DNA from: Cephalotus follicularis
Lineage: Eukaryota > Streptophyta > Magnoliopsida > Oxalidales > Cephalotaceae
NCBI GenBank assembly: GCA_001972305.1
Contig: BDDD01000876.1
Location: forward strand, 109,421-173,420
Reading direction: 5' to 3'
Length of the DNA stretch: 64,000 bases
Shown: positions 1 through 62,175 of the stretch, piece after piece
How the letters are laid out: each line of letters starts with the position of its first letter
Numbering within the stretch: the stretch's first letter is position 1
The notes under the pieces: generated by a model
What the model was told of the DNA's origin: nothing
The model's database searches: none
The model's input: only the letters and a program-made list of their open reading frames with translations
Program-made: the position numbers and the translations under genes

Positions 1-1585
1 CCTGGTTAATGACTGAACCTTAATGCATGTACTGTATAGAGTAATCTTCCTGGATTGAAGATTGTTGGTGTAAAAGACTTTGGAAACTCAAAGAGAAAGG
101 TCAATTACAATTGATCTTGGGATAGCAATTTAAGGTAGGGGTAATGACATGTTTATGGAAGATATATTATGCATATCATGTATGCTTATTTCCTAATTGA
201 TTGCATGTATTGATTGGATGGCATTAGACATTGAAAAAATTACACAACTGCTACTGCCTGCACTTTCTGGGCATAAGCAGTCGACTGTTCTTCATGGCAG
301 TCGACTACTCAACCCTATCCAGTCGACTGCTAAGGCAAAGCAGTCGACTATTCAACCGAAGCAGCCGACTGTTCTTGAGGGCAGTCGACTATCCTAGGTA
401 AAATTGCATAATATTTAATGAATTGCTACTGTCTTGTACTATTATTGAATTGCATATGCTACCATTATATAGTATATACTGTTTTGGTGTTATTTAACAC
501 CGCTACTACTTATATTTCAACGATCGAACGAACTATGTGCTATATGCACAATTCATGGTTTAACCATCATTTTCAAAATGAAAACTATTGTTTACAAGGA
601 ACTACTGATTTTCCTCCTATGTGAGGCACCTACTGTTTTGTTTCCAAATTGGAAACCACTACTGTATGGATATCGTTTTCCTCATATGAGATGTACGATC
701 ACTGAAATGTTATATGTTTCTCAAGAAAACGTTTTATATTGCATATCATATATATATATGTAATATTACTATTGAATTGCACTTATTGAATTGATTGTCT
801 ATGCATATTGCCGATTAGTCGAGTGATGGCAGATGTCACTGGCTAACAGAGGTGGTCCTATGTGCCAGGAGTTGGCTAGAGTACACACCAAAAAAAACTG
901 CCTGCAATGCAGAGCTTGATTGTTAACTGCCCTCTTAATGCCGGCAGCACTGTTTACCTCCTATCATCAGCGGAGTTGGGGTGATAGCTAGGTGGCTTGA
1001 CGTAGGCTAGGGGTTAACGACGTCTTGAGCCCAATACTGGTCTTCGGACATCCACTGGACTGATTGATTGTACCCTTGTGCGGTATTCTTGCATATGGAT
1101 TGTGTATGGCCACTTGGCATTGTTGCTTATATATTGGCACAAATAAATGATATTTTAATATAAACTGTCATACATGTTGCATTTGTATATTCCTTAGCAT
1201 GCATTATCTTCCTACTTAGCCAAGTGAGGACAACGGCTAACCCCTACAATTTTAGATTAAGCGAAGACGTGTGGAGATTGTCGCTGAAGCTTGGAGAGCT
1301 TCTCTTGTCAATTTAAGGTTGTTATTTCCTTTATGATGTACTGTATTGTATCGAACGGATCACATCCCCTGTTTATGTTGTTTTTCCTTTGTTTGAGGAT
1401 AAATGTTGGATTATGCCCGCACGTAGTATGGGCTGCGTGCGGATGACTTGTATTTATATTCCGGCTTATCGAATGCTTCCGCAAATTTATTTAATAATTG
1501 TTGCTGGAATATTATTTATGCTTATATCTGATATCACCGTATATGCTTGTCTTAACTTAACGTAATTGGAAAACGGGGTGTGACA
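1..1585 (+). mobile_element. LTR1 copy, 3' part (runs off left edge)
   Basis: This is the downstream ~60% of a long chromoviral LTR that enters from outside the window. It aligns by eye, block for block, with the LTR1 copies at 13375-14975 and 44160-45817: a palindrome cluster (278-391), a 'ggtcctatgtgccagg' block (~853), a 'gccaagtgaggacaacgg' block (~1219), a 'gcacgtagtatgggctgcg' block (~1421) and the terminal GGGGTGTGACA at 1575-1585. Satellite follows directly at 1586, so this is either a solo LTR or the 3' LTR of an element to the left. No primer-binding site follows, so it is not a 5' LTR. The short reading frames here are palindrome-derived and not genes. Confidence 0.85.
278..391. 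repeat. Phased palindrome cluster (CAGTCGACTG type), LTR1 mid-site
   Basis: Six copies of a ten-base palindrome, CAGTCGACTG or one-base variants, start at 278, 298, 320, 341, 362 and 382. The start-to-start distances are 20, 22, 21, 21 and 20. The 10-12-base spacers are unrelated to one another. This is the downstream of the two clusters found in each LTR1. Confidence 0.85.
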
Positions 1586-1794
1586 CTTATATTCTTATGG
1601 GTGTAATTGTAAATTTTAAAAAGATATGATTTAAGTCGTTTCAGGGATACTTTTTACAGGCAACATAAATGCATCGTCGTAAGTTGTTTGCCGTGATTTT
1701 GGCGTCAAATTAGCGTTCCAAGATCTTTTAGTGGGTCAATTTATCGTTCTTATATTTATTGGGACGTAATTGTAAATTTTGAAAAGTTATATTT
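1586..1794. repeat. SAT163 satellite fragment (~1.3 monomers)
   Basis: The sequence matches the tandem satellite at 39391-43094, sharing 'cataaatgcatcgtcgtaag' and 'tagtgggtcaatttatcgtt'. It is trapped between the end of one LTR1 and the start of E1, which shows both LTRs landed in a satellite array. Confidence 0.85.
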
Positions 1795-1954
1795 TGTAAT
1801 AACCGCAATTTCAATTCGTGTATATTGTACTTTTGATGAATGAAATATGCACTTACTTGAATTTTAATGTCCAATGGTTATATGAATTTGTGACTGGTTT
1901 TAATTGAAGGAATAAACTTAAAATAACCCAAAATCAGTCACCTACAGCAGGGCA

Positions 1955-2062
1955 ACAGTCGACTGCCTAGCTTATGGAGGAACAGCTGACTGTCACAGGG
2001 GAACAGTCGACTGGTTGATGCAAGGAGTGGACAGTCGACTGACAAGTGAATACAGTCGACTG
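1955..2062. repeat. Palindrome cluster (CAGTCGACTG type), LTR1 upstream site
   Basis: Five CAGTCGACTG-like boxes lie about 160-270 bp inside the LTR, upstream of the TATA-like box. Start-to-start distances alternate between ~21 and ~27-28. The same site is occupied in the LTR1 copies at 18455-18537 (inverted), 19090-19142, 43266-43360, 48430-48545 and 53770-53855 (inverted). Confidence 0.8.
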
Positions 2063-5775: not shown

Positions 5776-5779
5776 GATT

Positions 5780-22339: not shown

Positions 22340-22550
22340 CGTCGATGCTTAGCCCCGGGCGTTAACAGTTTTAAAAAGCACAAGAATAAAACGTCAACGG
22401 TTTGTTTTAAAGCATAAGGCGTCGACTTTTTGGTTTAACTCATAAAAGCATCGACTGTAAGTTTAACACATAAAAGCGTCGACTGTAAGTTTAACACATA
22501 AAAGCGTCGACAGGTTTAGTTTTGAAAGCATAAAGCGTCGACGGTTTTGA
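22340..22550. repeat. GCGTCGAC box cluster in LTR2
   Basis: Boxes such as GCGTCGACTTT, GCATCGACTG and GCGTCGACGG recur with ~28-31-bp spacing and near-identical spacers ('aagtttaacacataaaa'). The period is longer than in the other families. Confidence 0.75.
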
Positions 22551-24115
22551 TAGAAAATGCAGTTTGTGAAAGAGTTCGTAAACCAATGGAACTATGTCCA
22601 AAACTGTTCAAAGCCCTTTTTAAGATTCATCCCATAGCCCGTGGATTGAGAGAAGGCAAGAATTCATCTTCTCTTAATTCAACGTCGAACCCTTATATCA
22701 TATGCCATAAGCAGTACATATATCCATCCGTATGCTCATATTTAGACATATATATATATATATATATATATAAATACAATCATGCATCCATACAAATACA
22801 ATTCGTACACATCAATCCATATAATTATTTAGAATGCATGAATGTAATGCAAGCAATAGTATAACCTACCTCTTAGCGATTGAGCTCGTAAAGCTCGAAA
22901 ATCCTCTATCCTTGATCGTTTTGCTTATTCTTGATCGTTTCCTTTATCCTGCCTGTACAACACATTTCCGTTACACTCTACGCAGGAAAACAATGAACAG
23001 CCGCCATCGGAGCTTCGGCCAGTTTCCGGCCAACTCATTTAGCTCCGGCGAAACCCAAAAACAGGTTCCACATTGGACGATATGTTCAAAACCATCGGAG
23101 GCTCACCGTGACTCGTCGTGAAACGCGCTGTCACGGCCGACAGTGAGTCAACTCAATGAGTCAACCTGCCGGTCAACCATAGCTTCGGTCACCACCCAAA
23201 ATCATCACACAATCATCAATTCTACGCGTCACTGCCAGAGACTCGCCGTGAAACGCGCTGTCACGGCCGGCCAGTGAGTTCAACTCACTGAGTTGACTCG
23301 CCGGTCATCCTCAACTCCAGCTACCACCATAAAACGCATCACAATCATCATATAAACACACTACCAGCCTTAACTCGCAGAGACTCGGTGCACATTGTGT
23401 GGTCTCAGGCTGCCGCGAGTCGACTCACCAAGTCGACTCAGTTGACACATCCCGGCCGATTTTGGCCAAACCACGCCTCACCGGTGGTCAAAATGGATAG
23501 AGCGGGCCTTCTAGATGAAAACTACCTCCATCTGCAACATTAACGGCACCGAGAAACGCACGGCAATGCGCAACAGTGATGGGGAGAACGGAGGAAAAGA
23601 ATGAAAAGAAGAGGAAGAGGAAGGTTAATAGGCACGGAGGAACCACCGTGATGCTCGCCGCGTCACTGGCCGGCGTCTCTCTCTTTCTTCTCCGGCGCCT
23701 GGCTCTCTCTCCCGCTCTCTCTTGCTTTCTCTCCCGATATCTCTCTCTCTCGTCTACGTTCTTCTAACACACACGGGTGCCTTATGCGCCCGTGTGTCTC
23801 TTTTTCCCCCTCTTCAATTTTTTCTTCCTTTCTTGGTATTTGCCAGCCAAAATACTAAGGCATGGGTCCCGTTTAATCCAAAAACGGAAATATTAATTAT
23901 CCGAACAGGTACCAAAATAATCGCAATAAAAATGCGAACATAGGGCCTTGTTGTCGCGCATAAAAAAATGCGCTTTATCAGTCATTTTGGGCCTTATGAT
24001 TTGCGGCTCCAATACGCGATGCTTTTTATCGATTCGGGATCCATCGGCTGAATACGGCTATACACTATGCCAATATTAAAATAATTATTTATAAAATTTG
24101 GGGCCTTACAAGTCG

Positions 24116-30251: not shown

Positions 30252-30404
30252 AAATAGACGGATTGGACAAGACGAAAAGAGTTTTTGAAGTCGGAGAAGG
30301 AATCAGAAAGCGGTTTACGACCTAATAGAACGATTTTTTACAGAAAAACAAAGAGAGTAGAAATTTTCAGAAAACTCATAAATAGGTTAAAATGAGAAAT
30401 GAGC

Positions 30405-34881: not shown

Positions 34882-34995
34882 CAGTCGACTGTTTAATCCC
34901 AACAGTCGACTACTCAATGTAACCAGTCGACTGTTAAGGATAAACAGTCGACTACCTAATTAAAACAGACGGCTATTCTTATGAACAACCGACTG
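34882..34995. repeat. Phased palindrome cluster, LTR1 mid-site (exact 21-bp)
   Basis: Boxes start at 34882, 34903, 34924, 34945 and 34966, four consecutive steps of exactly 21, then 34986. The sequence is CAGTCGACTG/A in the first four, decaying afterwards. Spacers share little beyond A-richness. Confidence 0.88.
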
Positions 34996-35408: not shown

Positions 35409-35560
35409 CAGCCGACTGCCACAGGGAGGCAGCCGACTGGACCCTTTGTTGAGGCGTGGCAGCCAGCTACTGTGAGGAAGCAGCCGGCTGGTGGGAGTGT
35501 GGGCAGAAACAGCCGACTGCCAGGCCAAGACAGTCAACTGCCATGCGCCAGACAGCCCAC
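35409..35560. repeat. CAGCCGACTG box cluster, LTR3 upstream
   Basis: About six boxes (CAGCCGACTG, CAGCCGGCTG, CAGTCAACTG) begin at 35409 and 35430 (21 apart) and continue to ~35555. This mirrors the upstream cluster of LTR1. Confidence 0.8.
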
Positions 35561-36065: not shown

Positions 36066-36360
36066 GAATCCAACCGACTGCCCGCGTTTAGCAGTCGACT
36101 GCCTATGGGTCCAGCCGACTGTTCTTGGGAGGACAGTCGACTACCCATGTTCGTTTCCAGAAAATGTCTGCAGAGGTTATGTAGTCGACTGCTGTAGGTC
36201 AACAGCCGACTGTGGGGGTGTGGACAGCCGACTGTCCTGAGGACCAGCCGACTGTCGATTGCGGGCAGCCGACTGTCTGGTTGTGTAGCCGACTGCCTGG
36301 GTAGGGCAGCCGACTACTTTGAGTGAAACAGCCGACTGCCAGTGGGAGGCAGCCGACTGT
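36066..36360. repeat. Phased CAGCCGACTG array, LTR3 downstream
   Basis: Nine consecutive boxes start at 36182, 36203, 36225, 36245, 36266, 36286, 36307, 36329 and 36350: steps of 20-22 with a mean of exactly 21.0. Four more boxes lie at 36066-36146. Most read CAGCCGACTG, a one-base variant of the LTR1 palindrome. Confidence 0.88.
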
Positions 36361-37727: not shown

Positions 37728-38540
37728 TGTAAGGATCCATATTTCCATGAAAGATATTAATTATGGAAATGATTTCTTTTGTGTTTTGGCAGATATTTCA
37801 GGGGACCCGTAGTATGACCCTACGCTCGGGGAGTACGGGTATGATTCCCACAACATCCACGGTAAGTGACGGTCGACGCCTAGAAGCCTTCCATCTGCGT
37901 TTTAAACCAGTGCAAACAGTCGACGCTTAGGGCTAAAGAGTCGACGCTTTGGGTAACGGTCGACGCTTTGAAGAAAATGTCGACGCTTTAGGGTCTGGTA
38001 GGTCTGTTGACGTTGACGTTGACGTTGACTCTGACGAAGACTTGAAAGCGTCGACGCTTTGTAAGAAAGCGTCAGCGCTTTAGTCGGGATTGAGGTGAAA
38101 AATTCGGGAAAAACCCTTAACCGCCGACGCTTTGAAGAAACCGTCGACGCTTTAACATTTTCTATAAATAGCAGTGTTCGGTAGAAGTAAAATTTGAAGG
38201 GAAGAGATTGAACGGGGAAAGTCGAGCTTTGGCAGGAGCTCATATGTGATATTTTCGGAAGGAAACTTTTTACGAATTATGTTACGAATATAGTTTGTGT
38301 AATAATTTATGACATTATAAACTAATATTTTCCGCTGTATTATGTCCTTTGATAGATCCTGTGAAGATGTATGATGATTTAAATAAGAGTATGAAATTTT
38401 AAGGTTTAATATATCAGGTTATTTATAGATATTAGCAATTAGTATGATTGTTAAAGGACGTGAGGTTTCACCCCACGTAACGCACCGAATCCTCGAAGTT
38501 CGCTTTGAGCATAAAATGGACTCGGATCTGGGGCGTTACA
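37728..38540 (+). mobile_element. LTR4: solo LTR
   Basis: An 813-bp insertion with perfect CAGTC duplications (37723-37727 and 38541-38545), starting TGTAAGGATCC and ending GGGGCGTTACA. It has no internal region. A GTCGACGC cluster covers 37870-38152, and a short GTTGAC run lies at 38008-38030. Confidence 0.9.
37870..38152. repeat. GTCGACGCTT box cluster, LTR4
   Basis: About nine boxes, mostly GTCGACGCTT, have measured distances of 21, 19 and 20 (37919-37979) and ~20-21 later. The palindrome differs from LTR1 but the period is the same. Confidence 0.82.
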
Positions 38541-43094: not shown

Positions 43095-45817
43095 TGTAAT
43101 AACCGTAATTTCAATTAATGTATATTGCTCAAAAAAAAATTTTTTTTATAAAATATACATTTTAATGGAGATTATTTGTCCAATTATCATAATAATTGTG
43201 ATTAGTGAATGCTTGGGTTGAATTGAGATACAATTTGTTAAAACAAACTGAAGGAACCCTAAAACCAGCTCAAACATCCGACTGTCACAGGGTAACAGTC
43301 GACTGGTTGATTCGTGGAAGAGACAGTCGACTGTCACAGGACGACAATCGACTGGAGTGACACAGAACAGGCTCTGGCATGCGCAGAGACAGTGATGACA
43401 AGTGTTCTAATCGTGGCATGCATGAGGGATGCGTGTCACCAGTTGCCATAACATGCAAGAGGAGTGCCTTGCATGTCCTTTATTCCTTCTGCAAGATTTG
43501 TAGACCTGCAACCTACAAAAACAGAAGAGAAAGAGTGAGGAGAGGTGCATGTGAGAGAGAGAAGGAAAAGAGGGAAGGTAGAGTTAATGGGATCCTAACA
43601 AATTCTAAGACTCTAAGCCTTTATATCAGCTGTGAAGAGCTGATTTGAGTGATAGAAAACACTGAGGAGAAGGAATTGAAGGAGAGAAAAGATTTTCTTG
43701 GAGCTTGCATGTTAGAGTGTTCAAGGAGAGTGAAGCTTTGATTCTCCTGGTAAGCCACTAATCCGAATTCCTTAAGGTTGTTATGGTTAATAGCTAGGAA
43801 AATAAACTAGGATTAGATATCCATATCTTCTGTTAACATGATTAAGAGTTAGTAGGTTTGAATTGAAATAGAATTGGTAAATGGTTCAAAGAAGAGTTGA
43901 AATAGTAAGCCACTAATTCGAATCATGGCTGCTGTTATGGTTGTCAATAGGTATATGTATACTAATCACCCTCTATAGATACCTTCTGTAACATGCAAAC
44001 TTAGTACTTGCTGAAATTGGAGTTGATTAGTGGAGAGATGTTGTTAAATGTAAAAATGGAGACTTAATGAACTATTGATGAACTACTGCTGGAGTAGTGA
44101 TTTGTAACTAGATAATTAGTTAAACTTACTGCTTAAATGTTTGAACCTTCGAGCATGCATTGTATAGATCAATTCTGCTGAGATTGGAAGGTTAAGTTGG
44201 TTAAAGAGCTTGGGAGCTCAAAGAGAGAAATCAATCCAAATTTATTTCGGGATAGCGTTTAAGGTAGGCGTAATGACATGTTTTTGAAGATATTATGTGC
44301 ATATCATGTATGGTTAATATTCTATTTGATTGCATGTGTCGATTGGGTTAGTTTTTGGAGATTGAAATGCATACCATGCTACTGCCTGCTCATTTCTGGG
44401 CAAAACAGTTGACTGTTCTTCATGACAGTCGACTACTCAAACAAACCAGTCAACTGTTAAGAACAAACAGTCGATTACTCAACCAAACAGCTGACTGTTC
44501 TTGGAAACAGCCGACTGTCCTGGGATAAAATTCTGATATAAGGTTCTGTTAGGCCTTAAATTGAATGTAATTAACCTGGCCTCCATATGGGATGACTGTA
44601 ATAGTCAATCCTGGCCTTATATAATTACATTTCAGAATTTAAACAATGTATATACTCCTTGTGAGAATTTTACAAGAATGACTAGGGTATACAATGACCT
44701 TATTGAACCCTTGGATTGCTACTGTGCTTACTGTTTTACTGTATATGTTGCTGTTATAATTAGTATATACTGTCTTGGGTGTTCATTAACACTATTGTCC
44801 CTTATTTTCAAATGATTGAACCAACTAGTGCTTTAGGCACAAATATGAGTTGCTTACGGTATTCAAATGGAAATGTATATTGTCAAATGATTACTGTTTT
44901 CCCTACAATGAGAGGTACTGTTACTGTACTGAATACCGTTTTCCTCCTAGGAGATGTACGATTACTGAATTGTTAAATGTTTCAAAAGAAAACAACCTTA
45001 TATTACATTGTAAAACCTATGTAATATTACTACTGAATTGATTGGATTGATTGTCTATGCTATTGTCGTTAGTCGAGTGATAGGAGACATCACTGGCTAC
45101 GGAGGTGGTCCTATGTGCCAGGAGTTGGCTAGAGTATCCACCCAAACTGTCTGCAATGCAGGTCTTGATTGTTAAACTGCCCGCTAATGCTGGTAGTAAC
45201 TGACCTGATCTATCATCTTCGGAGTGAAGGGTGATAGATAGGTGGTGCACAGTTAGTGCAAGGAGTTAGAGACATGTGACACCCAAACCACTGTACTGAT
45301 TGACTGTACCCTTGTGCGGTATTCTTGAATTGTACTGTCTATGGCCACTCGGCATGATTGCTTATCTATTTTAATATTTAAAAATGCTATTTTATATATA
45401 AATGTCATGCATGTTGCATCTATAGATTCAATTATCATGCATTATCTACCTATTAGCCAAGTAAGGACAACAACTAACCTCCTACAATTTCAGATTAAGC
45501 AAGGGCGTTCGGAAGGTGCTGCTAAAGTTTGGAGAGTTTTTACCTGCTTAAGGTTATTCTATTATGTTGTACTGTATTTGCAATGAACGATTCGCACTCC
45601 GTGTTGTTGTTTACTTTCCTTATGTATAAGAATAATTTGATGGATTGTTTATGCACGTAGTATGGGCTGTGTGCGGATGACTTTTATTATATAATCCGGT
45701 TTATGGAATGCTTCCACTATGGTTTTGCGAATGTTAATATTATTGTTGGATTATATTACTTATTCCTGATATCACCACATATGTTGTCTAAATGTAATGG
45801 AATAACGGGGTGTGACA
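43095..45817 (+). mobile_element. Solo LTR1 in satellite
   Basis: A full LTR1 (2,723 bp), TGTAATAACCG to GGGGTGTGACA, with TGTAT before and TGTGT after, a 5-bp duplication with one change. Satellite lies to the left, and satellite resumes after a further insertion on the right. Clusters are at 43266-43360 and 44405-44520; the hairpin is at 43451-43476. Confidence 0.92.
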
Positions 45818-45824: not shown

Positions 45825-47696
45825 TGTAACACCCCCGGACGGCGGGAGTCGTCACAGGGTCGTATCATACATATCATAACTTAACAAACTCATAAAATTT
45901 ACTTTATTAACCAATAACAGCCGAAAACGTGGCAGTCTTATCAAAACATTTAAAACTTAACATATTAAGTAGTTGCGGAAAATTCAAAACATAAATCAGT
46001 TCCAATTTAAAAACATAAAACATAATAATCTATGTTTCTGACCACTAAATATAACAAACGTATCAAAATCATGAAACATCGTTGATTTCATAAACGAAGA
46101 TGCTTATCAAAACAGTTTTAGTTTGTATGTCAGATAGCCAAGGAACAGAAAATCCGTACCTTATGTGCTTGCAAAGTACTTACGAATAGGCGATCAAAAA
46201 CACATTCTCCTTTGAAGCACACAATCTAAAAGGCATTAAAAATCATACGTGTAAGAGTTTAAAATACACCAGAAGCATTAAACAGACTCTTAATAGTGTT
46301 TAGAAAAGATTCGGAATGATTTGGGGATCAAACGAATCAAAACAGTTGAAAACAGCACATTCCAGGGCAAAACAGTCGACTAAAACAGGGATCCAGTCGA
46401 TTGGGGAGGCTTGGCAATCGACTGTTCATATGGTCCAGTCGACTACACAACCCAAAATGCAGGCAGTCGACTGTGTTCTTCCCTCCAGTCGACTACACAA
46501 CCATTCCAGCCGACTGTCCACAGAGACAGCCGACTGTTCTGGGCGACAGAACTGTTGGAAATTCGACGATTTGCTACTGAAAATGGTTCAAATGGTTTCT
46601 ACGTTAAACTAGAGACGTATGAACATAAACATATGATTATATATGACTTGTAGGTGACTTACAAACACAAATTTCACAAGAAAACGACATGTCAAAGATT
46701 TAACTTGCAAAAGGAAGCAAGAAAACATTGGATGTATATGTCCAGATTCTGTTTCTAATTGATTACAGATGTTGTAAACTCAGTTTGTGACATATATAGG
46801 TGCATAAAATGTGCAGATAACGCAATGGCAACATGTTTAGACAAGAATCAAAGACCCCAAGACACCAAGAGCACAAAAACTCAAAGTAAGCCATTCAAAC
46901 AAAACTATAATTAAAGGGAATGAATTAACTGACCTTTAGTGATTCCCAGAACAGAAAAACAGTAGGAATACCACCACAACACTATCAAAATTTGGCTGTG
47001 AACAAAACAAAGAAAGAAAGATACAAAACCATGACATACTTAGACATACATAGCAAAGTAAGTGAATTTAACCCAAAAGAAACAATTAAGGGTTGAGATT
47101 ACCTCTTGAACTTTGAAGAATGAATTACACAGCAAATTATTTCACACTAATAGGGCATATTCGGCAGTGGTCTTGCAAGAATGATGGAGGTATCATATAA
47201 AATGGCAATGGCACTCAATAAAGGAGAAAGGAGGAGACATGATTTGACAAAAGGGAAAAGAAAGAAGCTTTTCTAGATTTTGAAATGGGAAAAGGAGAAG
47301 CTTTAACATGACAATTGATGGTGGGAAGAAGGAATCTACTGGAAAGAAGGAAGAAGGTGGAAGGAAGTAGGAGAAAAGTGGGAAAAATATGATAAAATAG
47401 GAAAAAGAAAATTTAAAGAATTAATAATAAAATGAATTAATAATGAAAAGAAAATAAGGAATATTAAAATAAAAGAATAATAATTTGTTTTTAATTAAAA
47501 TAATTTTGGATTAAAATAAAATAAATAAAACCCAACATAGCATAACACACCCAAATTTCGGACCGGTATCATTCCGCACAATTCACATAAACCCAAATCG
47601 TAGGGCAACCGGACTTTTAAAAATTAAACAAAATTAAAAGCCCGAAAACATAGATAAAATTTGTAAAATATATTTACGAACGAACAGGGTATTACA
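45825..47696 (-). mobile_element. Solo LTR5, inverted
   Basis: It has perfect TGTGC duplications (45820-45824 and 47697-47701). On the plus strand it reads TGTAACACCCCCGGACGG to CAGGGTATTACA, the reverse complement of the LTR ends at 56529 and 59272. At 1,872 bp it is shorter than the 2,744-bp LTR5 of E4, so it is internally deleted or a short variant. A CAGTCGACTG cluster lies at ~46373-46545. The insertion is only 7 bp beyond the end of the LTR1 at 45817. Confidence 0.92.
46373..46545. repeat. CAGTCGACTG cluster, LTR5 solo copy
   Basis: About eight boxes (CAGTCGACTA, CAGTCGATTG, CAATCGACTG, CAGCCGACTG), mostly ~20-22 apart. They correspond to 57672-57855 in the E4 LTR. Confidence 0.8.
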
Positions 47697-48262: not shown

Positions 48263-49829
48263 TGTAATAACCGCAAATCGTAATTCATGTATATTGTACT
48301 CTTGATGAATAAAATATGCACTTACATTGAATTTCAATGTCCATTTGTTATATGATTTGTGACTATGGTTTTAATTGAAGGAATAATCTTAAGTAACCAA
48401 AAAAACATCAGCCACCTCCAGCCAACTGTTACAGGGTAACAGTCTACTGCCTAGTTATGGGAGAACAGCCGACTGTCAAAGGGGAACAGTCAACTGGTTG
48501 ATTCGTGGAGTGGACAGTCGACTGCCATATAAATACAGTCTACTGGTAATGCACAAGACAAGTGTCTGTGCATGGCGCGAGACAGAGCAGAGGCGTGGCA
48601 TGCAATGGACAGGTGTTGTATGCATGCCACCAACTGTAACAACATGCAAGTGTGATGCCTTGAATGTTCTCTATTCCTCCTGCAGACTTGCAGACCTGCA
48701 ACCTGCAAAACAGAAGAGAAAAGAGTGAGAAAAGGTGCATGTGAGAGAGAGAAGAGAAAAGAGGGAAGGCTGAATTAATGGGAATCTATCAAATTCTATG
48801 GTTTTAAAACCTTTATATCAGCTGTGAGAGTTGCATGTCAGTGTTAGAAAACACTAAGAGATAGAGGAACGATCTGAACAAATTACTGGAGGAATTGCTA
48901 AAGCTTGCATGTTGATTTTTGGAGTAGACTCAAGTGAGAGTGAAGCTTGATTTTCCAGGTAAGTCGCAAATTCGAGTTGTTACTGATATTAAGGTTGTTA
49001 GTGAATTAAACATACTGGTGTTAGCTATATGTATTCACTGTTAAACATAACTTTGGAATTATAATCCTGGAATTAGAATGGAAATGAAAGTTGGTTAAAT
49101 GTGGAACTAGAGTAAAGAGATTTCACTAAGCTACTATTTGGAGTTATAGTTGTTATCATGACTAGATAACTACACAAACATACCGGTGTTGATATCTAAA
49201 CCTGAAAACATGCAACCATATAGATTAATTGCTGAATTTTTGAAGATTGAGTTGGGTGAAGAACTTGGAACTCAAAGAGAAGAATCAGTCCAATTTGATT
49301 CTGGGATAGCGATTGAGGTAGGGGTATTTACATGTTTTGGAAGATATGATATGTATATCATGCCTGGATGATTTCTGTATGATTGCATGTTATTGATTGG
49401 TTGGAATTTGATTGTGAGCATGCATACTCTGTTTTATTAAACTACAACCTGACGATTCTGGACAAAAACAGTCGATTGCTTAATCCCAACAGTCGACCGC
49501 TCAATGTAAACAGTCGACTGCCTAATGAAAACAGCCGAGTGTTAAGTGACAAATTACTGATATTAGCTGCTGTTAGGCTTTATTTTTTGTGTAATTACCC
49601 TGGCCTACACATAGGATGATTATAACAGTCAATCCTGGCCTTAGGTGGTTATATTACAAAAAGTAAACAACGTATGAACTCCTTGTGAGGGTTGTGCAAG
49701 AATGATTAGGGTATGCTAACATCTTGTTGAACCCTTGAATTGTGATTGTTCCGCTACTGCTTAATGATGCTGTTATACGTACTGTATATCTATTAAGTGT
49801 TCATAAATACTATTGTTACACTTAATATT
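48263..49829 (+). mobile_element. LTR1 fragment (5' 60%)
   Basis: It starts TGTAATAACCGCAAATCG after satellite and carries both palindrome clusters (48430-48545; 49470-49535, spacing 21, 21, 21) and the hairpin (48642-48667). LTR1b begins at 49830 and the rest of this LTR is not found in the window. Confidence 0.85.
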
Positions 49830-50319
49830 TGTAATAACCGCAATTTCAATTAATGTGTATGGTACAACGATGAATAAAATATGCATTTTCTTGAGATTTT
49901 ATGAAGGGTTATCTTTAGAATAGAATGAAAATTGGGATAAATTCTTAGATAAAAATTAAAGAAATAAATTCTGGTGCTAAACCATCAACGCCTAACACCA
50001 TACAATCGACGCTTTGAGCATAGACACGTGTACAAAACGCGCAGTTGAAGGCTGAGTTATGACGCACAAACCGTCGACACCAGAGAGAAACCGTCGACGC
50101 TTTGAATGGTGTCAGAACTGTGATACACACCTGTTAGAACAGGATAGTGGCACCAAATGGTTTCCATGGAAGATAAGTGTCCAGCGACGTGTCAACCATG
50201 CAATGAGACATTACCAGCTGTTGACAATGCAAGACTGAGGAGTCTTGCATGTGCTATTCCACCTGCAAGTCTGCAACCTGTAAGACTTTGAGAATGAAAC
50301 AAAAGAAAAGAAGGCATGC

Positions 50320-50353
<34 letters not shown>

Positions 50354-51323: not shown

Positions 51324-54027
51324 TGTCACACCCCGTTATTCCATTACATTTAGACAACATATGTGGTGATATCAGGAATAAAATAACAATCCATCATTCC
51401 ATTCAACATTTCATAAATAAGTGGAAGCATTCACATCTAGATTATAAAATAAAAGTCATCCGCACGCAGCCCATACTACGTGCTTATACAATCCAGCAAT
51501 TTTCGTTGTACATAAGGAAGTAAAATAGCAATACGGAGTGTAAACGTTCATTACAATTACAATTCAACATAAAATAACAACCTTAGCAGGTAACAACTCT
51601 CCAAGCTTCAGCAGCACCTTCCGAACGCCCTTGCTTAATATGAAATTGTAGGGGTTAGCCGTTGTCCTCACTTGGCTAAGTAGGAAGATAATGCATGATA
51701 AGGAATATATGAATGCAACATGTATGACATTTTATATTGAAAATAACATAATTAAGTATTCCAATATATAAGCAACCATGCCAAGTGGCCATAGACAATA
51801 CAATTCAAGAATACCGCACAAGGATACAATCAATCAGTACAGTTGTATGGGTGTCACATGTCGCTAACTCCTAGCACCAACTGTGCACCACCTATCTATC
51901 ACCCTTCACTCCGAAGATGATAGATCAGGTCAATTACTACCGGCATTAGCAGGCATTTTAATAATCAAGATCTACATTGCAGACAGTTTGGGTGGATACT
52001 CTAGCCAACTCCTGGCACATAGGACCACCTCCGTAGCTAGTGATGTCTCCTATCACTCGACTAACGGCAATAACATAGACAATCAATTCAATCAATTCAG
52101 TAGTAATATTACATATATCAATAGTATGCCATATAAAAGTTATTTTCTTTAGAAACATTTAACAATTCAGTAATCGTACATCTCATAGGAGGAAAACGAT
52201 ATTCAGTACAGTAGCAGTATCTCACGTTGGAGGAAAAACAGTAATCATTTGACAATATACATTTCCAGTTTGAAAATCGTAAGGAACTCGTATTTGTGCT
52301 TAAAGCACTAGTTTGTTCAATCATTTTAAAATAAGGGACAGTAGTGTTAATGAACACCCAAAACAGTATAAATTAATTATAACAATATCATATACCGCAA
52401 AGCAATAAGCACAGTAGCAATCCAAGGGTTCAATAAGGTCATTGTATACCCTAGTCATTCTTGTAAATTCCCACAAGGAGTATACACATTGTTAAAATTC
52501 TGAATGTAATTATATAAGGCTCGGATTGAATATTACAGTCATCCCATATGGGGGCCAGGTTAATTACATTCAATTTAGGGTCTAAATAGAATCTATATCA
52601 AAATTCTATCCCAGAACAGTCGGCTGTTCTCAAGAACAGTCGGCTGTTCGGGTTGAGTATTCGACTGTTTTCACTTAACAGTCGACTGGATAGGTTGAGT
52701 AGTCGACTGTCATGAAGAACAGTCGACTGCTTTGCCCAGAAACTGGCAGGCAGCAGCAGGGTATGCATGTTCAATATCCAATACTAAATCAATCAATACA
52801 TGAAATCAAACAGAAATTTAACCATACATGATATGCATAATATATCTTAAAAAATCATGTCATTACCCCTACCTTAACGCTATCCCGAAATCAATTTGGA
52901 TTGATTTCTCTCTTTGAGCTCCCAAAGCTCTTTCACCAACTTAACCTTCCAATCTCAGCAGAATTAATCTATAACAATGCATGCTCGAAGGTTCAGTCAT
53001 TAAATCAATAAGTTTAACTAATTATCCAGTTACAGATTACTCTCCAACAGTAGCTTATCACAATTCCATTAAGTCTCTTATTCACATTAATAAACAACTT
53101 CTAATTTCATCTTAATTCCCAGGTTTAATCATTCGTTCTCATGTCAACAATGGATTTATATTACTAACATTGGTATGTTTAATCCACTAACAACCTAATA
53201 TCCAACTAGTAGCTCATCATTAGCTCATAAATTCCACTCTTATTGAACCATTTACCCTTTCTATCTCACTTCAACTTATTAACTCTTAATCAAGTTGGCA
53301 GTGGTCATTATACTTAGATTCAGTAACTTAACTATCATCCCCATAATCATGGAAACGAATTCGGATTAGGGACTTACCTGGAAAATCAAAGCTTCAAAGT
53401 CTCCTTGAACACCCTAATCCTCAACATGCAAGCTCCAAAAATTCTCCAGCAAGCTTCCCTCTATCCTCAGTGTTTTCTAACTCTCAGAACACTCAGGCAA
53501 CCTCTGTTTATAGGGGGAAGTATTCACAATCCCATTTCCATTCTTTAACCCTATCATTTAACATTTTCTCCCTTTTCTCTCTCACATGCATAACTTTCTC
53601 TCACTTTAGTTCTTTCAATTCTTATGTTTGCAGGTTAGCAGGTCTGCAGAGCACATGCAGGGCACTCCTCCTGCATGTTATGGCAGCTGATGTCTCGCAT
53701 GACACCTGTCCAGCATGTACTTCCTTTGGCTGCGTCTCACATGCATGTACAGACACCTGTTCTGTACCATTCCAGTCGACTGTCTTTAACAGGCAATCGA
53801 CTGTCACACCACGCATCAGACAGTAGACTGTTACCCTGTGACAGTCGGCTATTTGAGCTGGTTTTAGGGTTCCTCAAGTTTGTTTTACCAATTTGCATTT
53901 CAAACCAACCAAAGCATTCACAAATCACAATTATTATGATAATTGGACAAATAATCTCAATTAAAATGTGTATTTATTATTAAAAAAATTTGAGCAATAT
54001 ACATTAATTGAAATTGCGGTTATTACA
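51324..54027 (-). repeat. E3 3' LTR (LTR1)
   Basis: A full-length inverted LTR1 (2,704 bp), TGTCACACCCCG to GGTTATTACA on the plus strand, joined on the right to E3's polypurine tract and pol. Palindrome clusters are at 52617-52735 (steps 20-21) and ~53770-53855. The 5' partner LTR is not in the window. Confidence 0.92.
53653..53678. promoter_or_regulatory. CATGCA hairpin, LTR1 with compensatory stem change
   Basis: The stem is ACATGCAGG with CCTGCATGT. Relative to ACATGCAAG/CTTGCATGT an A-T pair has become G-C, with both sides changed, so pairing is kept. Confidence 0.65.
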
Positions 54028-54068: not shown

Positions 54069-55303
54069 TTACATTCCGAACAAGTGGGGATACATCTCTA
54101 TCATTTTGTCTTCACGCTCCCACGCAGCTTCCTCTACTCCGTGAAAACGCCACAATACTTTTACCATAGGAATAGTCTTATTCCTTAGCACCTTCTCCAT
54201 TCGATCCACTATCCTTGTCGGCCTCACTTCATAGCACAATCTAGGACTGATGAATCCATGGTCGTAGCTCAATATGTGAGATGGGTCAGGCACATATTTT
54301 CGTAACATAGAGACATGAAATTTGTTGTGCACATCCGAAAAACTAGGCGGTAGTGCAATCTGATATGCTACATTCCCCACTCTTTCCAGTATCTCGTAAG
54401 GTCGAATATATCTTGGAGCCAACTTCCCCTTGAGTCCAAAACGGTGTATCCCTTTCGAAGGCGAGATCTTCAGGAAAACATGATCCCCCTTCTCGAATTC
54501 TAGCTTCCTCCTCTTGCTATCGGCGCAACTCTTTTGTAGACTTTGTGCAGCTAGCAGTCTCTTATTGATTATCTCCACTTTATTGGTCGTCTCTTGTACC
54601 AAGTTCGGTCCTAGCACCTATCTCTCACCTACCTCATCCCAGCAGATAGGTGATCTGTACTTTCTCCCATACAAGGCTTCATAGGGAGCCATTCTAATGC
54701 TGGTGTGAAAACTATTGTTGTAGGAGAACTCAATCAGTGCCAGATGATCCTCCCAACTCCCAGCAAAATCAATCATGCAAGCCCGTAGCATATCCTCCAG
54801 AGTCTGAATGGTACGCTCGGACTGTCCGTCGGTCTGAGGGTGGAATGCAGTGCTAAAGTTCAAGGTTTTTCCCATTGCTTCTTGGAACTTCTTCCAGAAC
54901 CTTGAAGTAAATCTAGCATCTCAGTCACAAACAATACTGACCGGCACCCCATCCAATCTCACCATCTCCCGGATATACAATCGAGCAAGCTTCTCAATAT
55001 AATACGTCATGTTCATTGGAAGAAAGTGAGCAGACTTCGTAAGTCTTTCTACTACTACCCACACCGCTTCATGTTGATTCTGTGACCTCAGTAATCCTGA
55101 CACGAAGTCCATTGTCACATGCTCCCATTTCCATTCAACCACTGGTAGCGATTATAGTAGTCCCACAGGTTTCTGATGTTTAGCCTTCACTCTCTGACAG
55201 GTCAAACAACTTACTACATATTCAGCAATCTCTATTTTCATACCACTCCACCAATAGTTCTTTTTCAGGTCGTGCCATATCTTGGAACTTCCCGGGTGGA
55301 ATG
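54069..55303 (-). pseudogene. E3 integrase with chromodomain
   Basis: From its N-side (right) it shows 'HPGSSKIWHDLKKNYWW' (~55300-55250), the zinc-binding 'CLTCQRVKAKHQ' region, catalytic 'MDFVSG' (~55105), 'VSIVCD' (~54925), and '[17 protein letters not shown]' with the third catalytic residue (~54800). The C-terminal 'FGLKGKLAPRYIRPYEILE' and chromodomain 'RPTRIVDRMEKVLRNK...AWERED' follow. The enzyme would insert element cDNA, with the chromodomain guiding it to heterochromatin. At least three stops break it: one near 55152, TGA at 54918-54920 and TAG at 54618-54620. Upstream gag, protease and RT are missing because the gene is cut at ~55300 by a head-to-head junction with E4. Confidence 0.9.
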
Positions 55304-56528: not shown

Positions 56529-59272
56529 TGTAATACCCTGCTTGTTCGTATGTATTTTACGGACTTTTATGTGTGTTTTCGGGCTTTTTAATTTGGTTAA
56601 TTTTAAAGTCCGGTTGCCCTATGTTTTGGGCCTATGTGATTTGGGCTGTTTGATGCCAGCCTAAATATTTTGGATATGTTATGCTATGTTGGGTTTGAAT
56701 TTTATTTATTTTATTATAATCCAAAATTATTTTATTAAAACAATTACTTTGTTTTATTTTAAAATTCTTAATTCCTATTATTCTTTTATTTTAATTCTTT
56801 TAATTCTTTTATTTCCTTTCCTTCCTAATTTCTTTTCTTTCCTATTTCTTCCCTTCTTCACCCGAATTCTCCCTCCCCTCATTACTTCCACACGGCAAAA
56901 ATCTCTTCTTTCAATTCTAAATCCCTGGAAATCCTTTCTTCTTCCTTTTTTGGGCAGATTTTATCCTCTCTTTTCCTTTTGGAGAGTGACAATACCATCA
57001 TATATGTGTCTTCATCTTTTATGCAAAAGCCACTGCCGAATTCTTCATTGTGGACTTTGTTTGATCTGTTGTGGAGTCGTTTCAGTAAATTTGAAGAGGT
57101 AATCTCAGTCCTTTAGTCGTTCTTATGAGTTGAATTCATTTGGTTTGCTAAGCATCTCCTTGTTTTGGTTTTCTTTGGTTTCCTTTTGTCCCTGTGTGCG
57201 GCCGATTATGATATGTTGTAGTGGTATTCTTGCTGTTTTTCTGTGTTCTTTAACCATTACAGGTCAGTTAATTCATTCCTTTCTGCTATGGTTTTGCTGC
57301 AATGTTGTAATTTGAGTTTTATGTTCCTACTGTCCATTGGTTTTGATCTCCTGTGTATATAGATATTCTGTCATGATGTTAGTAAGTGTCAGCATGTTTT
57401 GTATACCTATACTTGTAACAAACTGGTTTTAAAAATCTACAAATTACACTGGACATAAATCTGGACATATAGGTATGCTTTGTCTTCTTGCTTCCTTTTG
57501 AAAGTTAAGTCACTGTCCAGAAAATTCTATGTCAATCATGTGTTTCTATGTCACCTAAATGTCATATATGGTCATATAATTGTGTCCTTGTGTAACTGGA
57601 TTAGTGTTGTGCTTATTAGAACTCGTTTCTGTATTGAATTGTCTAGTTTACTACTGTTCTGTCTTCCAGAACAGTCGGCTGTTCCTGTGGACAGTCAGCT
57701 GGATTGGATGAACAGTCGACTGCCATATGAACACAGTCGACTGTCTTGGGTTGAGTAGTCGACTGCCTACATTCTGGTTTGAGTAGTCGACTGGCCCTTG
57801 CGATTAGTCGACTGCCAAGCTTTCCAGTCGGCTGGTGCTCTGTAATAGTCGACTGTTTTGCCCAGAAATGTACTGTTTTCAACCGTTTGGATTTGTTTGT
57901 TCCTCGAATCGATCCGAGTCTTTTCCAAACACAGTAATGAGTCTGTTTAATGCTTCTGATGTGTCTTAGACTCTTATACGTATGGCTTTGGTGTCTTTTA
58001 GATTATTGTGCTTCAAGTGGAGTTTGTTGAATCATCTATCCGTAAGTGCATTGTAAACGCATAAGGTACGGATACTTCGTTCCTTGATACACTCTTATGA
58101 TTTTATCAAATAAAATCAGTTTTGCTTTATGCGATGCTTCTTCGTTTACGAACTTGGAAATGTTTTATGGTTTTGGATATGTTTCGAAAATAAAGTTGGT
58201 TTTGACATTATAAATGCTTCCGACTTTATTCATATGATACGAAATGATACGATATGTTATGATATGTTATGATCATCTCTTTTATGGTGGAAATAAATGA
58301 GTTGATATCGTTTGTGAACGATTTGCGAATATGTTTTATGAAAGCATATTTTATGTGTTTTAATTTGATTTTGATAAATCAATGTTTTCTAAATGATTAA
58401 GTACTGAGTATTGTACCCACCTATGGGGCGTACCATAGGCACGTCGTAGGCCTGGCACGGGGACGTGACACTTCCGTAGCGGTGTGATTAGACTACGGCG
58501 TCTCTGAGTGTATGAATAAATCCCATGAGGTGGATTTATGGATCCGCTATGTATGATAGAGGCGTATGAATCGATTCTAGTTTATGTGATCTGAGGTTTT
58601 ATCAGATATGTGATCCGAGGTGTGATCGGGTATGTGTTATGTGAGAATTGACTTGTGTAGTGCCGTACACTTCAATTCTAGTGGGCATGTGGAATTAGCG
58701 CCTCCCTTGCCAAATTTATGTTATGTGATATGTATGTGGCTCAGTATGACTTATGATTCGTAAATGATTTTGTGAAATGTTTCGTAAATGTTTCGAAAGA
58801 TATGAAATTGATATTTCAATATGATTAAACTATTTTAACTACTTAAGATTTCTGTTACGATATTCTTGAAATCTTACTGCTCTTAAATTATCGTTTACTG
58901 TTTTCCCTTATCCGTACTGAGGTTTGCTCAGCCGCGTTTTTGTTTCCATGCGGCAGGTTATCGGGAGCAGCGGGGAAATGTGTGACGAGAGATGACCACC
59001 TTGTGTTTTGGATCCCTAGGAGTGTGATCCCTATGTTATTATGTATAGTGGTCATAAACAATGATTTTTATATTTTTATGTTTCAAATTTTAGAACTGGA
59101 ATATGTTTTGAGTTTTTCCGCAAATGCTTAATATGCTAAATTTTTAATGATTCAGTTATGATAAGACCACCACGTTTTTGGCTAATAAAGTAATGTTATG
59201 ATTAGTCATGTTATGATTTGATAAGTTCTGTATTATGTCCTGTGATGACTCCCACCGTCCGGGGGTGTTACA
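56529..59272 (+). repeat. LTR5 of E4
   Basis: A 2,744-bp LTR runs from TGTAATACCCTGCTTG to CCGGGGGTGTTACA. It has pol and a polypurine tract on its left and a primer site and gag on its right, so it serves as 3' LTR of one unit and 5' LTR of the next. A T/C-rich region (56690-56970) precedes the palindrome cluster at 57672-57855. Termini match the solo copy at 45825-47696 in reverse complement. Confidence 0.9.
57672..57855. repeat. Phased palindrome cluster, LTR5
   Basis: Nine boxes start at 57672, 57692, 57713, 57734, 57756, 57784, 57805, 57825 and 57846. Steps are 20, 21, 21, 22, 28, 21, 20 and 21. The boxes read CAGTCGACTG, TAGTCGACTG or CAGTCGGCTG. Confidence 0.88.
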
Positions 59273-59277
59273 GATTT

Positions 59278-60301: not shown

Positions 60302-61230
60302 AGGGAAGAGAAATGATAACCGGGGACAGCAACAGCCCGGTAATGACCAGAGGCAGACACAGGGAGCTGCGGATGTCCAGATTTCCAAGTGTGATATATG
60401 TGGTAGACAGCATCCAGTGGGAGTGTGCTACAAGGCTATCGGGGCTTGTATTGTGTGTGGTCAGAAAGGGCATTTCGTGAAGGATTGCCCTGATCCTCGT
60501 GCGAAGAAAAGGAAGGGGAACAATGCAGATCATGGACAGCACAACGTGGGAGGTCGTGTCTTTGCTATCATGACTCAGCAGGCTACTAATGCACCAGGTA
60601 CTGTTTCGGGCTTTATTTCTATTGGTAACCGTAGGGCTTATGTTTTATATGATACTGGATCGACCCACTCGGTTGTAGCGAGGTCTTTTGTTCGGCATCT
60701 TGGGATGTCTTCACAGTTGCTTGATCCAGCTTTGGTTCTTTCGACCCCTACGGGTACATCTGCTGTGATATCGGAGTGTTTCTATGCTTGTCCTCTTGTT
60801 TTCAATGATCGGGTTCGTGATGCGGATCTTTTGCCTATCGATATGTATGACTTCGATATGATTCTGGGAATGAACTGGTTGGATCGTCATCCGGCTACGA
60901 TCGACTGCTACACTCGGAGGATTCTGTTTGGGGATGTGAATAGACCTGATTTTGTTTATCAAGGTTCACAGCCGAGGAAAGAAGTGAAAGTAATATCAGC
61001 TCTGAAGGCTCGGATATTGGTGGCTAAGGGCGCTGAAGGTTTCTTAGCTGTTGTGAAGGATGTCTCAAAGGTTGAGCCTCGCCTTGAAGACTATCCTGTG
61101 GTACGAGAATTTTCTGATGTGTTTCCGGAGGAGTTACCGGGTTTGCCACCGCAACGGGATGTGGAGTTTACCATCGAACACATTCCTGGAGCGGCACCTA
61201 TATCTAAGGCACCTTACAGAATGGCACCAT
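60302..61230 (+). pseudogene. E4 nucleocapsid and protease, to start of RT
   Basis: This continues in the gag frame after the stop at 60301. It has a CCHC knuckle CIVCGQKGHFVKDC (~60447-60488) that binds element RNA, then an aspartic protease with catalytic DTGSTHS (~60652) and 'GMNWLDRH' (~60870). The linker 'VVREFSDVFPEELPGLP' follows, then the start of RT, 'KAPYRMAPLEL', where the sequence is cut at ~61230. The long open stretch 60417-61256 shows this part is little decayed. RT, RNase H and integrase of this unit are missing. Confidence 0.88.
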
Positions 61231-61286
61231 TGGAACTGCATGATGGAATCGAATAAACCGACTCCGGTGCCAAAATGGACATAGGG
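61231..61286. other. Junction between E4 and COP2
   Basis: 56 bp not assigned to either element. RT coding ends on the left and the presumed COP2 LTR end TGTAAGAGTG begins at 61287. Confidence 0.5.
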
Positions 61287-62175
61287 TGTAAGAGTGTAGA
61301 ATAAAATTTTTAACAACCAATCATGCAGCGGAAGAACACCCAATATAACTAAAACAAGTCCATAAAGGCACATCCACAGATCCCATGGATCACCACAACA
61401 TCAACAGAATTGAAATGGTGTCACCATTGCATTCAATGGTGACACACAAACATGGCAAAAAGAAGAGGGGCCAAAGGTTATACCAGTTGGTGAAGGCTCC
61501 TTAATTCTTTGCCGCTACAAGCGTGAGCAGATTCCCTTTGATCTTCTCCAAGCCTCAGGAATAGCAAGCAATCCTTCCAGCAAACACCAAGAGCTAGAAC
61601 TCACTCACTCTCTCACTTAGCTTAGAAAAGGAGTATTGATTATGACCAAAGAAGTCAGTAATCAATCCACCCTAGATAAGCCTTGCTTGGTGTATATCAA
61701 TAAAAGGAACACACACTTGCAGACAAGAATTCGTAGTCCAATTGCCCAGCAAAAGTTTCTCAACTCTCACTCTTTCACTTACTCAAATTCATTTCTGCAA
61801 AAATGCTTAATATCAGTCCCCTAATTCTCTCTCCCAATCTCCCATTTACTCAGATCATGGCCTTCACTCTGTTGGAGTCCGAAGCCATGATTCCCATGTT
61901 TCTAAAACGTGCAAGAACAGGAGCTGGATGCTGGAAACGAGGGAGAGATCGTGCCCATGATTTGAGCTCGTGCACAGGTTGCACGTTTTGCTCAAAGACG
62001 TCGACGCCTTCCAAAGGACGTCGACGCCTATGCATCGTGGCACAAAAGCACATCGATGCTTTCTAAAAGACATCGACGTCTTTATCAAGGATATGCATCG
62101 ATGTCTTTCAAAAAGATGTCGACGCCTTCTGGCTAGTGAAGCACAAAGAGTCTAACTCCTTTAGTGTTCTCATGT
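61287..62175 (-). repeat. COP2 LTR (partial)
   Basis: On the plus strand it starts TGTAAGAGTGTAGAATAAAA, taken as the outer end of a minus-strand LTR. It contains 'atgcagcggaagaac' (~61323) and, near its inner side, a GACGTCGACGCC cluster (61997-62135). The inner border and polypurine tract are not found, so the LTR probably continues into a deletion near 62180. The assignment rests on its position beside the copia genes. Confidence 0.6.
61997..62135. repeat. GACGTCGACGCC cluster, COP2 LTR
   Basis: Six boxes (GACGTCGACGCC, ACATCGATGC, GCATCGATGTC, ATGTCGACGCC) lie at distances of 20, 20, 25 and 21 within subgroups. The period matches the Ty3 LTR clusters. Confidence 0.8.

Follow-up and report, generated by a model that had tools for sequence, protein, structure and literature searches.

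Our analysis confirmed that the palindrome arrays noticed in one stretch of Cephalotus follicularis DNA are real and that the pattern spans the whole genome. The boxes occur in Ty3/gypsy LTRs, and one of their two flavours is also found in a Ty1/copia Sirevirus-like element; the 20-22-bp mode of their steps is seen separately in the CAG-type and the CG-type flavours. Boxes are kept better than their flanks and spacers are the least kept, yet the length of the spacers is constrained. We think it probable, by a modest measure, that the arrays serve retrotransposons as enhancers, to which a dimeric host transcription factor or close paralogues would bind. The held step, the free spacer and the two flavours provide a direct test of the evolution of cis-regulatory grammar and of convergence between unrelated elements.

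Abundance and step of the boxes

The window is the whole stretch analysed, 64,000 nt of contig BDDD01000876.1, from an assembly of 1.58 Gb. GTCGAC is its most over-represented hexamer (160 both-strand counts vs 12.5 expected), with 80 sites; 200 dinucleotide shuffles, made without the satellite, gave 5.6 +- 2.3 and never more than 12. Ten clusters in the window hold three or more GTCGAC sites, and 17 of the 32 adjacent steps within them measure 19-22 bp; randomising positions inside the same clusters gave 3.5 +- 1.8 such steps (maximum 13 in 5,000 runs). GTCGAC was again the top hexamer in an independent sample of 200 kb, made of 20 contigs of 10 kb each. Among the 63 adjacent GTCGAC steps below 130 bp in that sample, 27 fell at 20-23 bp and 7 at 28-29 bp, with none below 20, at 24-27 or at 30-41 bp. 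By flavour, and counting adjacent sample steps of up to 75 bp, 69 of 106 CAG-type steps measured 20-22 bp and 45 of 97 CG-type steps 19-22 bp.

The assembly as a whole contains 197,377 copies of CAGTCGACTG, against 939 of its reversed control, and 146,985 of AARRCRTCGAYGYYTT, the second flavour, against 596 of the control. Exact CAGTCGACTG pairs show the genome-wide 21-bp peak expected from the preliminary description, with 25,896 pairs at step 21, 8,471 at step 20, 5,531 over steps 22-27, 6,092 over 28-38 and 1,082 over 10-19. The existence of GTCGAC-type arrays at a 20-22-bp step is thus borne out by the counts in the window, the sample and the assembly. The box pair had no match in IMG/VR and was present in 13 records of a prokaryote genome set.

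Array families and conservation

Homology of the arrays was judged pair by pair, since automatic grouping had merged nested neighbours. A common LTR sequence, roughly 70-90% identical, unites LTR1, LTR1b and, outside LTR3 and LTR5, most of the CAG-type arrays. This group includes the downstream array of an LTR1-type Ty3/gypsy LTR at 278..389 (+ strand; 6 boxes, steps 20, 22, 21, 21 and 20 bp), which is homologous to 44281-44700 and 52430-52854, as well as the downstream (52619..52727, - strand) and upstream (53775..53849, - strand) arrays of LTR1; after the upstream one, TATAAA starts 268 bp downstream of the last core's start. The assignment to gypsy follows from an integrase end beside the LTR1-type LTR (54072..54617, - strand; SH3_Tf2-1, 2e-25), adjoining the LTR that starts near 54027. 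Further CAG-type arrays lie on the + strand at 1958..2060 (4 boxes, steps 48, 28, 21), 24112..24158 (interrupted by a nested insertion ending at 24110), 34884..34993 (5 boxes, steps 21, 21, 21, 41), 43298..43352 (in an LTR1-type LTR; steps 28, 21) and 49471..49518 (3 boxes, steps 21, 21). The LTR5 array at 46375..46534 (- strand, 8 boxes) is homologous to that at 57674..57853 (+ strand, 8 boxes), which lies in a 2.7-kb LTR. LTR3 has two arrays of unassigned strand, one of CAGCCGACTG at 35411..35557 and one at 36073..36357 with 14 sites, chiefly GCCGAC, and steps mostly of 20-22 bp. Two of the motifs first listed need correction: CAGCCGACTG is an imperfect palindrome, and GTCGACGCTT makes up one half of AAAGCGTCGACGCTTT.

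CG-type arrays are found at 22341..22542 (strand unassigned; GCGTCGAC, in a tandem unit of ~28 bp located at 22386-22511), within the nested element 20226-24110; at 25473..25573, a sparse array of unassigned strand (3 boxes, steps 53 and 42); at 26526..26640 (- strand; steps 21, 67, 21), in an LTR homologous to that at 49829-50926; in LTR4 at 37872..38148 (+ strand; GTCGACGCTTT), where TATAAA starts 20 bp downstream of the last core's start; and at 62000..62123 (- strand; GACGTCGACGCC) in COP2, a putative LTR. The Sirevirus-like element COP1, on the - strand, holds arrays in its 3' LTR (27606..28112; AAAGACGTCGATGTCTTT) and in its second LTR (34156..34684), with 21 and 17 dyad-symmetric sites in the two LTR clusters. 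Between them lie a Ty1/copia gag (32725-33747; Retrotran_gag_2, 1e-26), a Ty1/copia reverse transcriptase (30932-32317; RVT_2, 9e-82) and an extra 3' ORF in the ENV-like position (28890..30302; Pfam Transposase_32, E 8e-21), with CG-type boxes immediately 5' of the latter at 30410..30681.

Another CG-type array, at 50005..50098 (+ strand), has LTR1 homology on both sides, where LTR1 holds CAG-type boxes, which suggests a possible switch of flavour inside one promoter lineage. The core-by-core alignment of this switch scored only marginally above shuffles, and this slightly lowered our confidence in the enhancer explanation. Its identity of 0.83 was discounted, as shuffles reach 0.82 at those gap costs and only scores count.

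With boxes masked, no homology of their own was detected among the LTR1 group, COP1, LTR3, LTR4, the 46375/57674 pair, the 22341 array and the 62000 array. For COP1 and the gypsy LTRs no common LTR ancestor was found, as expected if these families are unrelated, but that proposal fails for the LTR1 group. The number of independent families first given is unsupported, many of the named LTRs being one superfamily. What does survive is a constrained array whose core and step are common to a Ty1/copia element and Ty3/gypsy LTRs, with conserved boxes and a held spacer length.

This conservation was measured on 129 alignments of homologous stretches, which have copies in common and are not independent: counting boxes present in either copy, identity was 0.897 in boxes, 0.823 outside and 0.733 in spacers, and the values for shared CG dinucleotides were 0.70, 0.43 and 0.25, respectively. 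An earlier estimate of box identity was dropped, having conditioned on an intact query box. The CpG observed/expected ratio reached 1.43 for the COP1 array, compared with 0.40 elsewhere in its LTR, and 1.74 for LTR4; array and rest stood at 0.82 and 0.77 in LTR1, 0.68 and 1.05 in LTR3, and 0.71 and 1.16 in LTR5. Single changes near exact box pairs, pooled by symmetry, numbered 18 at C1, 8 at T4, 3 at G3, 2 at C5 and none at A2; in the window, A2 was changed once in 58 one-mismatch boxes.

In alignments that likewise have copies in common, spacers at most 60% identical kept the same step in 38 of 46 cases and were one off in the other 8, never further, whereas 37 of 226 control intervals shifted by more than one. 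Steps differed by a whole unit between homologues in 3 of the 156 compared, so cassette shuffling also shapes the arrays. Such differences, together with the two recurring spacer types that alternate in LTR1 and the 28-bp tandem unit at 22386-22511, would fit arrays made without any protein platform, by duplication, gene conversion and template switching at boxes during reverse transcription, the 21-bp unit being inherited. We regard this origin as unlikely: step-21 spacers are diverse (75 fall into 20 clusters), boxes are better conserved than flanks, and the same step recurs amid flanks without detected homology. The claim that spacers are unrelated is mostly correct, the alternating types of LTR1 being where it breaks down.

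A proposed host factor and its alternatives

Under the enhancer explanation, we infer protein binding, dimers, cooperativity and activation. Each dyad-symmetric site would be taken up by one dimer of a host transcription factor, and the 20-22-bp (two-turn) step would help neighbouring dimers. The stricter model of the preliminary description, with all boxes on one face of the helix, is rejected for CAG-type arrays because 27-28-bp steps occur; this second permitted step falls between full turns of the helix. CAG-type steps of 24-75 bp fit a 7-bp period (R 0.72 and 0.86) better than a 10.5-bp period (R 0.45 and 0.60), and CG-type arrays follow the 10.5-bp period weakly (sample R 0.37; window R 0.27, not significant). 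The 27-28-bp steps also count against enhancers with two-turn phasing, as does the placement of some arrays downstream of a likely TATA word (52619-52727 and 36073-36357) or deep inside a long LTR, more than 1 kb in (57674-57853). Of 12 LTR stretches searched, 7 have a TATA-like word after the array and 5 have none, a count with no chance control; two of the seven words are CATAAAA and one lies outside the aligned LTR.

The factor could instead be encoded by the elements. VANC proteins, whose recognition is element-specific, bind clustered short motifs in VANDAL DNA transposons, which encode their own factor. The preliminary description named an anti-silencing protein of this kind as one option. 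The boxes resemble the VANC-bound motifs in being short and clustered in non-coding element DNA, and COP1 does have one extra ORF. We find this very improbable and the proposal unsupported. The boxes are common to Ty1/copia and Ty3/gypsy elements; the extra COP1 ORF matches Transposase_32 only (Pfam, threshold E 0.01); and in the one gypsy copy inspected the integrase frame ends ~45 bp before the LTR (54072-54027), leaving no room for an ORF. Whereas VANDAL transposons have their own factor, none was found between the integrase and the LTR of this gypsy copy; the extra ORF of COP1 or other element parts might conceivably encode one.

For the host factor of the enhancer explanation, a DREB-type protein is the leading named candidate, possible though doubtful. 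GTCGAC, GCCGAC and ATCGAC, all with the DRE/CRT core RYCGAC, are enriched in the window, while ACCGAC is absent from the 40 top words listed for it. We kept our confidence low because constraint also reaches the symmetric flanks outside the core, which a lone AP2 domain would not require. To our knowledge, no known DRE/CRT element takes the form of an extended palindrome repeated at 21-bp steps. The core word itself is identical, RYCGAC and GTCGAC being entered in PLACE as sites of barley CBF1/CBF2 (AP2/DREB), according to an excerpt of PMC4222965.

More broadly, Ty1/copia and Ty3/gypsy elements may have converged on one enhancer grammar, consisting of a GTCGAC-type dyad, a two-turn step, flanks that can be exchanged and, besides these, a longer composite cassette of 28 bp with a CGTG core. 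One host factor family would then read at least 340,000 boxes and couple the expression of many LTR families. This is a tentative extension, plausible but short of probable. If one factor family does bind the boxes, retrotransposons of different ancestry depend on the same host regulator, and they may titrate it through hundreds of thousands of sites per genome.

The arrays could also act at the level of RNA, as hairpins that give rise to small RNAs or contain an RNA signal. Folding was stronger than in dinucleotide shuffles at 61990-62130 (z -7.7), 270-400 (-5.4), 27590-28125 (-5.2) and 57665-57860 (-4.1), but 6 of 10 arrays gave z of only -1.2 to -2.9 and one of four controls reached -2.8. 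In excerpts of PMC10760457 and PMC5311732, which cite Bousios et al. 2016, the palindrome-rich LTR arrays of maize Sireviruses are small-RNA hotspots, and an RNA-level role is proposed for them. Like those arrays, ours lie in a cis region of the LTR that is rich in palindromes and changes fast; they differ in that their folding is not uniformly strong. Pairing between boxes needs no 20-22-bp step, and since being silenced harms the element, a role as silencing target would not alone account for conservation. We consider a role of this kind improbable.

Finally, the boxes might be integration targets or chromatin-positioning signals instead of enhancers. One nested element does sit within a box, with the target duplication AGTCA/AGTCG, and a weak preference for palindromes is reported for insertion of plant LTR elements in an excerpt of PMC6911290. 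This is a single event, the same excerpt describes LTRs as not commonly targeted, and targeting offers no reason for conservation inside the element. We give this explanation very little credence.

Comparison with known systems

The recruitment of host factors by LTRs has precedents. According to an excerpt of PMC12786077, the ONSEN LTR recruits HSFA2 and the EVADE/ATCOPIA93 LTR recruits WRKY. The enhancer arrays proposed here would likewise pair an LTR with a host transcription factor, here putative. Those cases concern one family each, whereas here hundreds of thousands of like sites are spread across families. For one palindrome in unlike elements, a precedent comes from excerpts of PMC10760457, where a maize Copia palindrome is the top motif in structured regions of Helitrons; that work also cites arrays of palindromic repeats from the cis regions of further elements.

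The closest relatives are the RM boxes of Sireviruses. As described in excerpts of Bousios 2010 (PMC2829016), these are palindromic, number at least eight per element, cluster in the LTR, where they form a CpG island ahead of a TATA box, and just upstream of ENV, and are specific to Sireviruses among Ty1/copia elements; stress-factor sites were proposed for them. COP1 has the Ty1/copia gag and pol plus an extra 3' ORF, many box copies in its LTRs, and boxes 5' of the ORF, whose ENV identity comes from position only. As to multiple PPTs, a polyC-rich LTR end and an inverted repeat at the PPT, further marks of Sireviruses, inspection by eye showed C-rich tracts beside the LTR and a polyC run. 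Relatives of its reverse transcriptase occur in many plants (at best 76% identical among the 120 matches listed of 8,000 scored), and a Vitis relative likewise joins PF20167 and RVT_2. Among the papers listed from the open-licence literature, a weak basis for a negative, none announced box arrays in Ty3/gypsy LTRs in its title or the opening of its abstract, and no CAGTCGACTG was met; GTCGAC in PMC5893645 is a cloning site only. The boxes resemble RM boxes in being short dyads, clustered in LTRs, with extra copies 5' of the ENV-position ORF in COP1. They differ in their core, GTCGAC/RTCGAY here, without the CGG-CCG that the excerpts of PMC2829016 give for all RM boxes except that of Tnd-1 (ACAATCGATTGT, which includes ATCGAT); the Vitis box, CGGTCGACCG, includes GTCGAC. 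The step is mostly 20-22 bp here, and the excerpts of that account note no fixed step. Palindromic LTR box arrays are thus already known from Sireviruses, a precedent that the preliminary description leaves out. Their presence in Ty3/gypsy LTRs here takes the RM box beyond the one group of Ty1/copia elements for which it was described as specific.

The boxes and their step

The preliminary description held that GTCGAC-type palindromes recur at 20–22-bp steps (start to start) in several LTRs, and this is borne out: the window contains 80 GTCGAC sites, against 5.6 ± 2.3 in 200 shuffles. GTCGAC ranks first among hexamers both in the window and in a separate 200-kb sample from 20 contigs of the same assembly. 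In 10 GTCGAC clusters of the window, 17 of the 32 adjacent steps measure 19–22 bp, versus 3.5 ± 1.8 when positions are randomised within the same clusters.

These boxes come in two flavours, which we call CAG-type (CAGTCGACTG and near variants) and CG-type (AAAGRCRTCGAYGYCTTT-like). The CAG-type step is sharp, with 69/106 (sample) and 43/62 (window) of the adjacent steps up to 75 bp lying at 20–22 bp, whereas the CG-type step is looser (45/97 and 28/45 at 19–22 bp, respectively). Both retrotransposon superfamilies carry arrays. In the window, COP1 (Ty1/copia) carries CG-type boxes, as do two LTR1-related LTRs (50005–50098, plus strand; 26526–26640, minus strand), LTR4 and the LTR of the 22341–22542 array, these last two having no superfamily assignment. 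LTR1 and LTR5, both gypsy to judge from adjoining genes, carry CAG-type boxes, and so does LTR3, which has no superfamily assignment. LTR1 is classed as Ty3/gypsy because an integrase end at 54072–54617 adjoins the LTR starting near 54027, and the other LTR1-type copies take the label from their homology to that LTR.

Over the 1,577,397,061 bases of the assembly searched, where counts are lower bounds for large families, CAGTCGACTG occurs at least 197,377 times (939 for the reversed sequence) and AARRCRTCGAYGYYTT, the second flavour, at least 146,985 times (control 596). Pairs of exact CAGTCGACTG, with the reversed pattern as control, number 1,082 at steps 10–19 (control 5), 8,471 at step 20 (36), 25,896 at step 21 (89), 5,531 at steps 22–27 (14) and 6,092 at steps 28–38 (14), so that steps 20 and 21 make up 34,367 of the 47,072 pairs over steps 10–38. 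The breakdowns of the pooled classes are samples, since the matches listed start from the first contigs: among 50 distinct places listed for steps 10–19, tallied by eye, 48 have step 19 and 2 step 18; among 50 matches listed for steps 22–27, 25 have step 22, 24 step 27, 1 step 26 and none steps 23–25; and among 50 listed for steps 28–38, 44 have step 28, 1 step 29, 1 step 30, 4 step 31 and none steps 32–38.

The 28-bp step differs from two helical turns. CAG-type steps of 24–75 bp agree better with a 7-bp lattice (R 0.72 and 0.86) than with 10.5 bp (R 0.45 and 0.60); for CG-type arrays the fit to 10.5 bp is weak in the sample (R 0.37) and non-significant in the window (R 0.27). CGTG or CACG is present in 34 of the 44 step-28 spacers (18 bp) listed genome-wide, or 25 of the 34 distinct ones, and in one listed step-20 spacer; in the window and sample together it is found in 4/13 spacers at step 28, 0/2 at step 27 and 0/110 at steps 20–22. 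The longer spacer might, at a guess, hold a second site. Many of the step-28 spacers listed resemble variants of a single cassette, and common descent is therefore as likely as repeated gain.

Conservation and a possible change of flavour

Boxes are more strongly conserved than the sequence around them, and spacers least of all. Over 129 alignments of homologous stretches (at least 250 bases, at most 97% identical), with boxes scored when present in either copy, identity is 0.897 in boxes, 0.823 outside and 0.733 in spacers, and the shared fraction of CG dinucleotides is 0.70, 0.43 and 0.25, respectively. Between neighbouring homologous boxes whose spacers are at most 60% identical, the step is unchanged in 38 of 46 cases and one off in the other 8; in control intervals whose middles have diverged to the same degree, the length shifts by more than 1 in 37 of 226 measurable cases (from 230). 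A whole-unit difference (21 or 22) appears in 3/156 compared steps. The conservation and step alignments have copies in common and are not independent. Step-21 spacers are diverse, 75 falling into 20 clusters.

The upstream LTR regions 49820–50450 and 53440–54040 are homologous (alignment score 301 vs 134 ± 10 in 40 shuffles); the homology is clear where the LTR begins (95 vs 40 ± 5) and past the array (155 vs 74 ± 8). Across the array itself the score of 67 (45 ± 6 shuffled) barely exceeds the best shuffle, 65, and the core-to-core alignment is therefore marginal. One region has CG-type and the other CAG-type boxes in the matching place. The array thus keeps its position and differs in box type, which suggests a possible flavour switch, perhaps by core-to-core descent.

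Arrays within the elements and the window

In LTR1, TATAAA begins 268 bp downstream of the last-core start of the first array; about 800 bp beyond that word comes a second array. A splice-donor-like CAGGTAAGT occurs at 53373–53380 (minus strand), about 135 bp past the TATA word, so the second array may sit in a leader intron. In LTR4, TATAAA begins 20 bp downstream of the last-core start. A TATA-like word is present in 7 of the 12 LTR stretches searched and absent from 5. Both LTRs of COP1 carry arrays, and another group of boxes, at 30410–30681, lies immediately 5' of its extra ORF. This ORF (28890–30302) matches Pfam Transposase_32, a domain that a Vitis Pol protein combines with RVT_2. CpG observed/expected is high in the arrays of COP1 (1.43) and LTR4 (1.74) and shows no rise in those of LTR1 (0.82), LTR3 (0.68) and LTR5 (0.71); a CpG-island role would therefore not be shared by all arrays. 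Some arrays fold strongly as RNA; the folding of others is ordinary.

The interval 20224–24111 holds a nested element (20226–24110, minus strand) whose insertion, with target duplication AGTCA/AGTCG, interrupts a GTCGAC box in one of the LTR1-type arrays. A 3.45-kb tandem duplication at 5883–12765, with copies 92% identical, apparently lies within one nested element (2733–13369), and an assembly gap of 956 N spans 4343–5298. A 163-bp tandem satellite occupies 39391–43092 (about 23 copies) and 47726–48267 (about 3 copies), with further matches at 1586–1800. It is a candidate centromeric repeat, and the window may thus be pericentromeric.

Possible function and known systems

We somewhat favour the reading that the arrays are enhancers read by a dimeric host factor, which would bind the boxes as a dimer and activate the element. 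A DREB-type factor is a candidate, no more, because the CBF sites tabulated in PMC4222965 include RYCGAC and GTCGAC. More tentatively, and with rather less confidence, Ty1/copia and Ty3/gypsy elements could have converged on one enhancer grammar read by one host factor family. The weaker evidence for a flavour switch slightly lowers our confidence in both readings.

Palindromic LTR boxes are already known from Sireviruses (Bousios 2010, PMC2829016, in excerpt). Other elements, too, are noted to bear arrays of palindromic repeats in their cis regions, and a single maize palindrome is common to Copia elements and Helitrons (PMC10760457, in excerpt). As far as our limited literature search shows, the following are new: the occurrence of boxes in LTRs of Ty3/gypsy elements, a step maintained across freely varying spacers, two flavours built on a single core, and the number of boxes. 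The layout of COP1, with boxes in both LTRs and 5' of the extra ORF, is like that of the repeated motif (RM) boxes of Sirevirus LTRs, as these appear in the excerpted text of Bousios 2010 (PMC2829016).
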